A stretch of DNA of 21,599 nucleotides from a virus. Position 1 is the stretch's first letter. Each line of letters begins with the position of its first letter. Below are positions 6,663-21,599 of the stretch, piece by piece. The notes under the pieces were generated by a model. That model did not search any database, was not told the origin of the DNA, and worked only from the letters and a program-made list of their open reading frames with translations. Position numbers and translations under genes: made by a program. The stretch lies in IMG/VR virus record IMGVR_UViG_3300045968_000309, positions 1 through 21,599 of that record. One strand, given 5' to 3'.

Positions 6663-7210
6663 GCGGCGGTGCCGCCCGCGGCGCGGGCCGCGTGACGCTG
6701 CGCCCGGGCGCGCGGCGCGTCGAGCTTGCGCTCGGCGAGCGCGGGCGCCTGCGCTTCGCGCTGGCCGAGCTCCGGCGCCTGCGCGCCCGCGCGGCCCTCG
6801 TCGATCTCTCCAACGTCGATTGGCTCGCGGCGCGGCGCGTGCGCGGCGAGCCCGGGCTCGAGGGCCGGCAGGGGCCGCCGGGCATCGACGGCGCCGAGGG
6901 CCGGCAGGGCGACCCCGGCATTCCCGGGATCCCCGGGCCGCCGGGACCGCAGGGGCCGCAGGGCGAGCGCGGGTTCCGCGGGCCGCCCGGCCCCGAGGGC
7001 GAGCGCGGGCCCGGCATCGTGGACGCGCGGATCGTGGGCACGGCGCTCGTCTTCACGTACACGGACGGCCGCGAGGAGAACGTCGGGCGCGTCGTCGGAA
7101 CGCGCGGGCCGCCCGGGCCGCCCGGCGACCGCGGCATCGGCTCGGCGGCAGGGGAGGGCGGTGTCGCGCCCTCGCCGCCGCTGGAGGAGATCGACGGCGG
7201 CGCGTGGTGA
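6659..7210 (+). CDS. Collagen-like tail fibre protein
   Basis: This 183-residue protein starts at GTG 6659, overlapping the previous stop. The first 60 residues form a helical basic head with an [10 protein letters not shown] motif. Residues 63-116 are 18 unbroken Gly-X-Y triplets, many with Pro or Glu/Arg at X/Y ([13 protein letters not shown] type), and a second block of about 5 triplets starts near residue 147. Such repeats form collagen-like triple helices in phage fibres. The head probably binds the baseplate and the segment between the blocks (about 120-146) is a beta-rich knot. Triplets need no prolyl hydroxylation in phages. Confidence is high for a trimeric fibre, less for its exact place. 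Confidence 0.82.
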
Positions 7211-13689: not shown

Positions 13690-14832
13690 ATGCCAAGGAC
13701 CGGCGTCGCCGCGATCGCGCTCGCCCGCACAAACGCGGCATGGCGCCCCGTCGCCGTCCATCTCGTCTACGGAGCGCTGGCCAAGGTCGCCGAGCTCGTG
13801 CCGAACGTCGAGCCCGGCGTCGATCCCTTCCTCGAGGGCGGCGACCGCAGGTGGCTCGACGAGACCCTCGGGATCCGCGGCATCGCGTTGGCCCTCGAGC
13901 ACGCGAAGCTCGTCAAGCTGACCCGGCGCGGGGCGCTCTTCCCGCACGCCGACGAATGGCTCGCCGCGAGCTCCACCGGCACCAGCACCGCACGCGTGCG
14001 GCGCCACCGGGAGCGCCGGCGGGCCCGGCTCGAGGAGCTCTCCGCGGGCCGTTCCGGGCCGAGCCTTCCATTCGCACTGCACGTCGGGGATGACTCTCCC
14101 CCGGACGTCCGAACCTCCGGGGCGCCCCCTCCGGAAGTGACGTCACCGGTGACGTCACGTGACGTCACCTGTAACGTTCCTGAAACGTTACGAAACGTTC
14201 CTGAAACGTTTCACGAAACGTTGCGAAACGTTTCACCGGCCCTCGTGCGCGCGCGTCCACCCGTTTTCGCGCGGGCGTCGGACTCTCTTGCATTCAGGTG
14301 TCTTGAGAGACGACAAACAGCACAGCACAGCACAGCACAGCACAACGCCGAACGGACTCCTCGCGCAACGCGGGCGCGCGAGCCGGCCGCCTCGCTGGCG
14401 GCCGAGCTCGTCGAGCGGCGGGTCGCCTGCCTGCTCGCGAAGTGCCCTCCCGCCGGGCCCGAGGCCACGATCGAACGCCCGGCTCCGCCGCGTGCGACAG
14501 CTGCAAGGATCCTTCCGGCCCAAGCCGCGGCTCCGCCGCGGTGCCCGGATGCCCGGAGCGCCCTCGACCGAGGAGATCCGACCGTGAACGCCGCACTCGA
14601 CGAATGCCGCCGCATCCTGCGGACCCGCGTCCGGGGATGGGATCCGTCGCGCGAAAAGGGCGCGCTCGATGCGTGCTTCGCGCTGCTCTGCGCGCGGCGA
14701 CCGGCGCTGGACATTCTCGAGGACGTCTGCACGCGGGCCGCGAGGGGCAACAATGGTCCCGGGTGGGTCACGAACGCGCTCCGCCTCGAGGCGGAGCTCC
14801 CGACGCATGCACGCACGGCCCGCACGGGCTGA
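13690..14832 (+). CDS. Putative replication initiator (O-like) with embedded repeats
   Basis: This 380-residue protein is read from ATG 13690 (13657 is an in-frame alternative; neither has a good ribosome-binding site). Residues 1-95 are a compact helical domain that could be a winged helix. Residues 99-117 (STARVRRHRERRRARLEEL) are a basic helix typical of phage replisome organisers, followed by a linker rich in Val-Thr repeats (EVTSPVTSRDVT, then NVPETLR repeats, residues 149-183). Residues 200-310 are low complexity with a CACAG repeat. The last 70 residues (DECRRILRTRVRGW on) are helical and look folded. The family call comes from layout and recall; no helicase or polymerase gene accompanies it, so host replication proteins would be recruited. 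Confidence 0.55.
   Translation: MPRTGVAAIALARTNAAWRPVAVHLVYGALAKVAELVPNVEPGVDPFLEGGDRRWLDETLGIRGIALALEHAKLVKLTRRGALFPHADEWLAASSTGTSTARVRRHRERRRARLEELSAGRSGPSLPFALHVGDDSPPDVRTSGAPPPEVTSPVTSRDVTCNVPETLRNVPETFHETLRNVSPALVRARPPVFARASDSLAFRCLERRQTAQHSTAQHNAERTPRATRAREPAASLAAELVERRVACLLAKCPPAGPEATIERPAPPRATAARILPAQAAAPPRCPDARSALDRGDPTVNAALDECRRILRTRVRGWDPSREKGALDACFALLCARRPALDILEDVCTRAARGNNGPGWVTNALRLEAELPTHARTARTG
14137..14234. repeat. Array of helically phased ACGT palindromes (candidate origin)
   Basis: Nine ACGT cores lie at 14140, 14152, 14162, 14174, 14185, 14195, 14206, 14218 and 14228, spaced 12, 10, 12, 11, 10, 11, 12 and 10 bases (mean 11.0). The first three are identical 10-bp palindromes GTGACGTCAC (14137, 14149, 14159). 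Fusion of these makes larger perfect palindromes at 14137-14158 (22 bp) and 14149-14168 (20 bp). The remaining six have AACGTT cores, including perfect TGAAACGTTTCA (14202-14213) and GAAACGTTTC (14225-14234). Lambdoid origins likewise lie inside the initiator gene, so iterons are the first guess. Confidence 0.7.
14317..14344. repeat. CACAG pentanucleotide tandem repeat inside the initiator gene
   Basis: Bases 14317-14344 are 5.6 copies of a 5-base unit (CACAG). In frame they encode a Gln-His-Ser-Thr-Ala-type repeat. Because 5 is not a multiple of 3, gain or loss of one unit would shift the reading frame of the upstream gene, a classical source of phase variation. The frame is open at the copy number present. 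Confidence 0.75.
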
Positions 14833-15605: not shown

Positions 15606-15914
15606 ATGCCGAGACGGCCCCCCGTGTTCAGGCCGCTCTCATGGTCGCCCCTCGAGGCGCGCGGATGCGCCGCCTCGAGGGGCTATGACCGGCGCTGGCG
15701 CACGCTGCGCGCATGGTTCCTCTCGCGCCATCCCGTGTGCGTGCGGTGCGGCTCGCCGGCGAGCCTCGTCGATCACGTGACGCCCCTCGAGGACGGCGGC
15801 GCGCGGCTCGATCCTGCGAACCTGCAGGCGCTGTGCCGAGGCTGTCACGGGCCGAAGACGAGGAGCGATCTCAAGGCGCGCAAGGCGAGGCGGACGGGCA
15901 CGGTGGCGACGTGA
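15606..15914 (+). CDS. HNH endonuclease beside the terminase
   Basis: This 102-residue nuclease starts at ATG 15606. Zinc pairs Cys45-x2-Cys48 (CVRC) and Cys77-x2-Cys80 (CRGCH) bracket the catalytic Asp56-His57 (VDHVTPLEDGG), Asn72 (PANLQ) and His81, so the HNH core is complete. HNH proteins encoded near terminase genes assist DNA cutting during packaging in HK97-type phages, and that role fits here although six small genes separate it from the terminase. Its stop overlaps the GTG of the next gene (GTGA). Confidence 0.9.
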   Translation: MPRRPPVFRPLSWSPLEARGCAASRGYDRRWRTLRAWFLSRHPVCVRCGSPASLVDHVTPLEDGGARLDPANLQALCRGCHGPKTRSDLKARKARRTGTVAT

Positions 15915-20997: not shown

Positions 20998-21581
20998 CCA
21001 CGCCCGCACACTTGGAACGCCGCTACGTCGCACGCACCGAGGCCCGGGTCGCCGCACGCGGCCGCACGCTCGTCGGCTATGCGGCGCTCTTCAACGTCGA
21101 GAGCCGCGATCTGGGCGGGTTCGTCGAAGTGATCCGCCCGGGCGCGTTCCGGGCATCGCTCGCCGATCCCGAGACCGACGTGCGGGCGTTCTTCGATCAC
21201 GACACCGGCCGGGTTCTGGGCCGGCAGAAAAGCGGCACCCTGCGCGTCGCCGAAGACGAGCGCGGGCTCCGGTTCGAGATCGACGCTCCCGACACGACGG
21301 ACGGCCGGGACGCGGTGGAGCTCATCGGCCGCGGCGATCTCGACGGGACGAGCTTCGCCTTCCGGATGATCGAGGACGAATGGACCCGGACGGGCCGGAT
21401 CCATCGCCGGGAGCTCGTCGCGGTGGACGTCTTCGACGTGTCCGTCGTGACGTTTCCCGCCTACCCCGAGACCGAGGTCGCGCTGCGTTCGCTGCGCGTG
21501 CTCGAGGAGAGCGGGGCGCGGCGCTCCCGGACGGCGGCGGCGCGGCGGCGCCTTTCCCTCGCCATGGCGCGCGGCGCATAA
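20994..21581 (+). CDS. Prohead protease, HK97 family (U35-like)
   Basis: This 195-residue serine protease cleaves the capsid delta domain and other head proteins during maturation. It starts at ATG 20994, overlapping the portal stop. The family signature is present: VGYAALFNVESRDLGGF, VIRPGAF, catalytic His69 in FFDHDTGRVLGR, catalytic Ser120 in LDGTSFAFR, and DVFDVSVVTFPAYPET near the end. An Arg-rich tail follows. The last 36 codons (from 21473) are duplicated at 1-109 through the terminal overlap. The gene lies between portal and capsid as usual. Confidence 0.94.
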   Translation: MTTPAHLERRYVARTEARVAARGRTLVGYAALFNVESRDLGGFVEVIRPGAFRASLADPETDVRAFFDHDTGRVLGRQKSGTLRVAEDERGLRFEIDAPDTTDGRDAVELIGRGDLDGTSFAFRMIEDEWTRTGRIHRRELVAVDVFDVSVVTFPAYPETEVALRSLRVLEESGARRSRTAAARRRLSLAMARGA

Positions 21582-21599
21582 TGGCGGCGACGTGACGCG
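21473..21599. repeat. Right copy of 127-bp terminal direct repeat
   Basis: Identical to 1-127 base for base. It contains the end of the protease gene and the first 18 bases of the leader before the capsid gene. Removing one copy gives a 21,472-bp circle with no interrupted gene. Confidence 0.97.

Follow-up and report, generated by a model that had tools for sequence, protein, structure and literature searches.

A row of ACGT palindromes inside a putative phage initiator gene as the likely iterons of an in-gene replication origin

A row of nine ACGT-centered palindromes lies within an open reading frame for a putative replication initiator in IMGVR_UViG_3300045968_000309, a viral DNA record of 21,599 bp and 72% GC that was analyzed at its full length (hereafter the window). 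We interpret this array, with a probability of roughly 0.75, as the initiator-binding iterons of an in-gene replication origin, both the binding and the origin function being inferred. The arrangement probably represents initiator-gene iterons in a layout like that of lambda O and the RepA_N proteins, with a basic helix reminiscent of the bZIP proteins as their proposed reader; here too binding and origin function remain inferences. The window carries a 127-bp direct terminal repeat (1-127 and 21473-21599), and therefore the record is likely to be a complete, circularly closing phage genome of ~21.5 kb. It encodes HK97-type head genes, a terminase and an integrase; ~21.5 kb is small for a phage with head genes of this type. 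Also encoded are an HNH endonuclease (phrog_589, E 3e-23) at 15606-15914, which lies upstream of the terminase genes, and collagen-like Gly-x-y repeats at 6820-7210 in an ORF adjoining the presumed tail genes. The features pertinent to the array are as follows, in window coordinates:

13690-14832, plus strand: ORF of a putative replication initiator, 380 aa when counted from ATG 13690
13984-14019, plus strand: basic helix STARVRRHRERR, residues 99-110, the proposed DNA-reading helix (binding inferred)
14102-14111, no strand: outlying 10-bp palindrome CGGACGTCCG
14137-14169, no strand: class 1 sites, three GTGACGTCAC palindromes with half-site GTGAC
14173-14234, no strand: class 2 sites, six AACGTT-centered
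14154-14235, no strand: highest AT content and lowest stability in the genome, whether in windows of 60, 80 or 100 bp; overlaps the class 2 sites
14236-14583, plus strand: linker, frame open, codon-position GC signal lost
14584-14832, plus strand: C-terminal part of 82 aa, codon periodicity restored

The nine palindromes, each of at least 6 bp, occupy 14137-14234 within the open frame, and their ACGT cores start at 14140, 14152, 14162, 14174, 14185, 14195, 14206, 14218 and 14228, i.e. at successive spacings of 12, 10, 12, 11, 10, 11, 12 and 10 bp with a mean of 11.0. The three class 1 palindromes fuse into two overlapping 22-bp palindromes (14137-14158 and 14148-14169), and the fusion of the second and third sites creates an extra CACGTG at 14157, such that the array holds ten ACGT. 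All twelve half-sites of class 2 conform to GNAAC (GTAAC, GGAAC, GAAAC and GCAAC); beyond 6 bp, just two of these six sites, 14202-14213 and 14225-14234, are perfect palindromes. An earlier note, made from the letters alone, had claimed nine ACGT cores at 10-12-base spacing (mean 11.0), the first three being identical palindromes and the last six having AACGTT centers, all of which held except that the extra CACGTG brings the number of ACGT to ten. Three of its further claims held in part: the fused palindromes, given as 22 and 20 bp, are both of 22 bp, the reported 20-mer being the core of 14148-14169; the upstream palindrome, given as 14103-14110, is in full the 10-bp palindrome listed above; and the sites, said to face one side of the helix, do so only broadly, with drifting centers. 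When placed on a 10.5-bp helix, the nine centers span an arc of ~154 degrees (mean resultant 0.71, Rayleigh p ~0.01); thus, the phasing is real but loose. The array is the densest ACGT cluster of the window (10 in 98 bp), but this count by itself is weak evidence because ACGT is over-represented throughout the window, with 143 occurrences where dinucleotide shuffles predict 71.6.

The array is a DNA-level element under DNA-level constraint. GC3 is 0.485 within it as against 0.921 in the other genes of the phage, and the codons TTA, TCA, GTT, CCT and CGA, which account for 0.4-5% of usage elsewhere, sit exactly where the palindromes require them. When the array peptide was resampled synonymously 50,000 times according to the codon usage of this phage, a count of ten palindromes never arose (mean 1.2, maximum 6), and the prior assertion that Val-Thr/Asn-Val peptide repeats do not explain the palindromes is upheld. 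The AT content of the AT-rich stretch at 14154-14235 is merely 51-57%; its role as a candidate unwinding region is inferred from sequence alone.

The frame of the array-bearing gene is open from 13573 and its start is uncertain. Codon-position GC is gene-like across 13690-14080, is gone from ~14110 to 14530 and is back in 14590-14830, from which we infer an N-terminal domain, an unconstrained linker containing the array, and a C-terminal part or second gene. The linker at 14236-14583 is likely to be disordered, while 14584-14832 might be either a C-terminal domain or a separate gene from GTG 14584, with GAGGAG upstream. Past the array and ahead of the C-terminal part, the open frame contains a perfect tandem repeat of ACAGC (5.6 copies, 14317-14344); since the gain or loss of a single copy would put 14584-14832 in another frame, that part is perhaps phase-variable or a separate gene.

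The protein has no Pfam or NCBIfam match, and neither does its C-terminal part taken separately; the PF09681 (Phage_rep_org_N) profile does not match it at E 0.1 and a Pfam search yielded no RepA_N match. Its sole PHROG match, phrog_2509 'replication initiation protein' at residues 44-111, is weak (E 0.064). The basic helix STARVRRHRERR aligns with the profile of array-bearing initiators in hhalign over 17 columns with 59% identity (E 1e-5), this alignment covering the helix only. An AlphaFold model of the N-domain (pLDDT 64, pTM 0.30) was set aside for any claims regarding the fold; within this otherwise poor model residues 101-120 are modeled as a helix with a mean pLDDT of 93. The prior identification of the gene as a replication gene is hence supported weakly, resting on the phrog_2509 match (E 0.064), the common helix motif and the layout. 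Close relatives of the protein were not found in IMG/VR, phages or GTDB genomes, and the conservation of the gene itself is consequently untestable; the conservation tests described below use relatives that share only the layout and the helix. Synteny via terminase relatives was tried and abandoned: the best relative, L187 (85%), ends before the region and an array was carried by 0/80.

The array recurs at one place in the initiators of many diverged phages. Scans of IMG/VR with array-pattern DNA recovered two kinds of loci, namely repeat proteins and ORFs with the row located behind a helix of the form R-x4-R-E-[RK]. The former (tail and collagen-like proteins), which served as a control, show AACGTT rows with 9- or 12-bp steps in a single codon phase. 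The helix-type ORFs show 11-12 bp steps, with mixed codon phases in 38 of 49 initiator-like arrays, and 22 of them matched PHROGs for replication initiation, replisome organizer and DnaD-like loader, as well as PF09681. The initiators of phages phi11, phiPV83, phiEf11, SM1 and A500 carry ACGT arrays directly after the basic helix. A tight GTGACGTCAC pattern gave only 3 matches in 85,000 genomes, the layout being clearly shared by L269 and plausibly by L268.

As an array-blind sample we assembled 68 distinct Phage_rep_org_N genes retrieved by the N-terminal protein domain alone. In 44 of these GTNACGTNAC is present within nt 330-560, and palindromes of at least 10 bp occur in nt 360-419 at 0.82 per gene versus 0.085 upon synonymous shuffling, with a frequency near background across most of the remaining gene. 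The 10-mer palindromes are found in three codon phases (32/23/9), encoding NVT/DVT/HVT, VTS/VTL or SRD. The earlier note had named as its refutation the retention of the Val-Thr repeats with loss of the palindromes; the opposite is found, with the palindrome being kept while the peptide and the frame vary. A three-site row is mostly retained in 13 relatives of a second family. Some relatives have other palindromes at the array position (GTAGATTCTAC, TGTCAATGACA, CCTAACGTTAGG and GGACATGTCC), some lack any recognized array, and the rep genes of TP901-1 and Tuc2009, with experimentally known or annotated origins, have no ACGT array.

Several variations on the theme were also seen. In L303 and L333 the half-site recurs mainly in direct orientation (GTCACGGGACAGTCACGG...), and thus the half-site, rather than the palindrome, is perhaps the basic unit. 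In L355, L362, L368 and L375, which are relatives of the replisome organizer, an insertion that looks like an HNH-like domain (YCGN...DHLIP) separates the basic helix from the array place, spanning gene nt ~390-670; in the first three of these a GTNACGTNAC palindrome lies after the insertion, near nt 676. The initiator-like ORFs of L124, L130, L131 and L153 display extra VT-rich palindromic stretches that precede the main array and fall within the N-domain region.

The sequence class of the array covaries with one face of the basic helix, which spans residues 106-132 in the relatives. When relatives with ACGT-class sites are compared with relatives whose sites are GTAGAT, the two groups have no residue in common at helix positions 115, 116, 119 and 123, and zero positions of the winged-helix domain (1-104) separate the ACGT classes from GTAGAT. 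Residue 120 tracks the third base of the half-site within the ACGT classes: V with A in 30/30, T with G in 12/13, N with G in 4/4 and K with C in 14/16; one additional K120 relative, outside the B set of relatives, carries G. The same base is tracked by residue 123, with F or H accompanying A, W accompanying G and Q accompanying C. The families that are independent of the B set yield z values of 9.8 for position 120 and 7.5 for position 123, with no signal at 121, 125 and 126. The association of V/T with A/G extends beyond the family from which it was derived (Fisher p 2.5e-7, uncorrected for kinship). Named phages fit the pattern: V-A is found in PP9W, YMC P54, Silvergun, A500 and SM1, and K-C in phiPV83 and phiRg519T2.

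Kinship inflates such simple p-values, and a test on disjoint sister pairs is a better guide, though the code was partly learned from the same data. A tree built from the N-domains with the helix left out contains 21 disjoint pairs whose members are of different class. Of these, L363/L359 and L357/L358 were rejected as unconvincing class switches, being ties or near-ties in base counting. Residue 120 differs in 18 of the 19 remaining pairs, and the code is obeyed by both members in all 14 pairs in which both residues are informative. The pair L054/L174 breaks the residue-120 pattern, both members having Q, which is not predictive. As the members of the pairs L129/L003 and L154/L035 are nearly equal in GC, base composition does not explain the code. 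The sites of L310, L316 and L320 are CCTAACGTTAGG, and in their helices WYD replaces x123-R124-E; this group possibly constitutes a further class of the recognition code, with the half-site G set against R124.

In the numbering of the relatives the helix of the window protein has R119, V120, H123 and R124. The combination of V120 and H123 predicts GNAAC, which is matched by the six AACGTT sites; the three GACGTC-centered GTGACGTCAC sites fall outside the code, unlike the sites of V120 helices elsewhere. The suggestion that the two kinds of centers define two binding classes gains a concrete basis, given that in other initiators GACGTC and AACGTT form separate recognition classes in step with helix residues, the binding itself being inferred. 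Likewise, the region formerly suggested for DNA binding, residues 1-120, includes the basic helix to which the covariation points.

Parallels are offered by several known systems. The O genes of lambda and Stx phages contain inverted-repeat iterons between the parts for the N-terminal DNA-binding and C-terminal regions, near AT-rich DNA (PMC7466680). The window array likewise consists of repeated inverted-repeat sites within putative initiator coding sequence, with the frame open throughout. The lambda iterons are ~19-bp imperfect inverted repeats, whereas those of the window are ACGT-centered palindromes of at most 10 bp in 11-bp steps; no sequence relation between the two was found, and the window lacks a separate AT-rich tract beyond the iterons. 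The earlier proposal of lambda O-type iterons is thus supported as the best reading, with origin function inferred in the absence of any experiment on this phage. In Staphylococcus phage 80alpha, the gp20 record places a rep_origin within the initiator gene, where palindromes precede an AT-rich stretch; a deletion of this gene cannot be rescued in trans, and ORF20-21 support the replication of a plasmid (PMC5499656). In SPP1, oriL lies in gene 38 (PMC6316719). Both 80alpha ORF20, with palindromes, and SPP1 gene 38, with direct repeats, combine an initiator-embedded origin with AT-rich DNA, as is inferred for the window; their type of initiator and their iterons are different (in 80alpha TTTTCCAACGTTGGAAAA and ACCGTTAACGGT). 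The PF09681 replisome organizers (phi11, phiPV83, phiEf11, SM1 and A500) have the same ACGT palindromes at the same place and the same kind of helix, the window protein differing from them in the lack of a profile match.

The rep gene of plasmid pSK41 specifies a winged-helix N-domain, a dispensable linker whose coding region houses the origin boxes, and a C-terminal recruitment domain (PMC5703833). The N-domain of the array relatives, modeled as a winged helix (pLDDT 77), aligns with 4pql and 4pt7 (Z 9.0 and 8.8, 81-82 residues), titled 'N-Terminal domain of DNA binding protein' and 'Structure of initiator', which we take to be pSK41-type RepA; a CRP-like domain scores Z 9.6, and a Foldseek search with the relatives' N-domain returned only generic winged helices (best E 2.6e-3). 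The likeness to RepA_N is therefore one of the fold of the relatives' N-domain and not of the sequence of the window protein. Moreover, pSK41 reads its boxes by the winged helix, whereas in the array relatives the site class follows the basic helix located behind it.

The sites of eukaryotic bZIP proteins such as GCN4 and CREB are palindromes with an ACGT core (CRE, G-box and PAR-like). Their basic regions contact DNA at positions 0, +3, +4, +7 and +8 with an N-x7-R spacing, specificity residing at +4/+7 (GCN4). In the array relatives N/S/T116, R119, 120, 123 and R124 fall at 0, +3, +4, +7 and +8; N-x7-R is present in most of the B set and S-x7-R in the window, the DNA contacts being inferred. 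A leucine zipper is absent, the helix being followed by the array-encoded linker without heptad leucines. We regard the resemblance as likeness rather than membership, and probably as convergent.

The position of the array in initiator genes is the same as that of the origins of 80alpha, lambda/Stx O, SPP1 and pSK41, which favors the interpretation as an origin; cumulative GC skew, previously proposed as a check for an origin near 14.2 kb, marks no clean origin in the window. Further points against the interpretation are the weak match of the window N-domain to the initiators, the three GACGTC sites outside the code, the different initiator type and iterons of 80alpha, which is the phage with genetic evidence, and the absence of arrays from some relatives and of ACGT arrays from the TP901-1 and Tuc2009 rep genes. 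In the mechanism we propose, the N-terminal DNA-binding domain of the initiator ends in the basic alpha-helix STARVRRHRERR, and initiator dimers would insert their paired basic helices into the major groove to read the half-sites G-N-R-A-C of each ACGT palindrome. Sites about one helical turn apart would load several initiators into a single nucleoprotein complex, to which the winged-helix domain may contribute DNA contacts or oligomerization. This complex is predicted to strain AT-rich DNA such that the row melts, no DNA in the genome being richer in AT than the iterons themselves; the C-terminal part would then recruit the helicase or its loader. Initiator binding, origin function, the unwinding site and helicase recruitment are all inferred.

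The main rival to this reading, which we consider unlikely, is that of an autoregulatory operator, wherein binding of the initiator, or of a repressor, to the array throttles transcription of the initiator gene or of downstream genes without any origin function. In its favor, initiators often autorepress, and covariation between protein and DNA is to be expected whatever purpose the binding serves. Against it, the array lies ~450 nt inside the gene and not at a promoter, at a depth comparable to that in the relatives, and the corresponding gene of 80alpha is required in cis for replication and together with the loader drives a plasmid. A second alternative, which has very little support, sees the palindromes as hairpins or cruciforms in single-stranded or supercoiled DNA or in mRNA, serving as a primosome-assembly, single-strand-initiation or RNA signal. 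The plus strand of the array does fold into four hairpins (-32.4 kcal/mol, z -5.1 vs dinucleotide shuffles), as would be expected of any palindrome row. However, hairpin stability requires complementarity and not a fixed ACGT core or a third base tied to residues 120 and 123, and L303, L333 and others carry the half-site as direct and not inverted repeats. Similarly improbable is a partition (centromere-like) or other maintenance site for the same protein, or a binding site for a host factor. Palindrome arrays do serve also as centromeres; however, this phage encodes an integrase and is therefore probably maintained via integration, no ParA-like gene was noticed by eye among the window ORFs, and the covariation is with a helix of the very protein whose gene holds the array. 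Finally, selection for a Val-Thr/Asn-Val peptide, with the palindromes as a codon by-product, has a precedent in the tail and collagen-like genes, which do yield AACGTT rows (9 or 12 bp, single phase), but is all but excluded by the failure of all 50,000 synonymous resamples, the three codon phases in homologs and the 38/49 mixed-phase arrays.

The interpretation as in-gene origin iterons can be extended to a bolder reading, to which we give only a slight edge over its negation: that many unrelated initiator families share a bZIP-like helix reading ACGT palindromes by the residue-120 code, with the iterons lodged in the linker DNA directly after the helix and the helix and iterons switching together. 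ACGT palindromes as phage iterons are undescribed in the 5.4 million open-access papers that we searched; subscription literature was outside the search and priority is not established. In-gene origins are known from few model phages, i.e. lambda, SPP1 and 80alpha. Here a single recognizable element marks the probable origin in initiator genes of diverse, mostly uncultured phages ranging from 30 to 72% GC. As the part of the protein that would read the array can be named from covariation, origins in metagenomic phages become predictable and the proposed recognition code testable. Lying in the same stretch of DNA, an initiator and its sites are able to change in concert, and, if the bolder reading is true, its code would allow origins to be predicted from protein sequence across phages.
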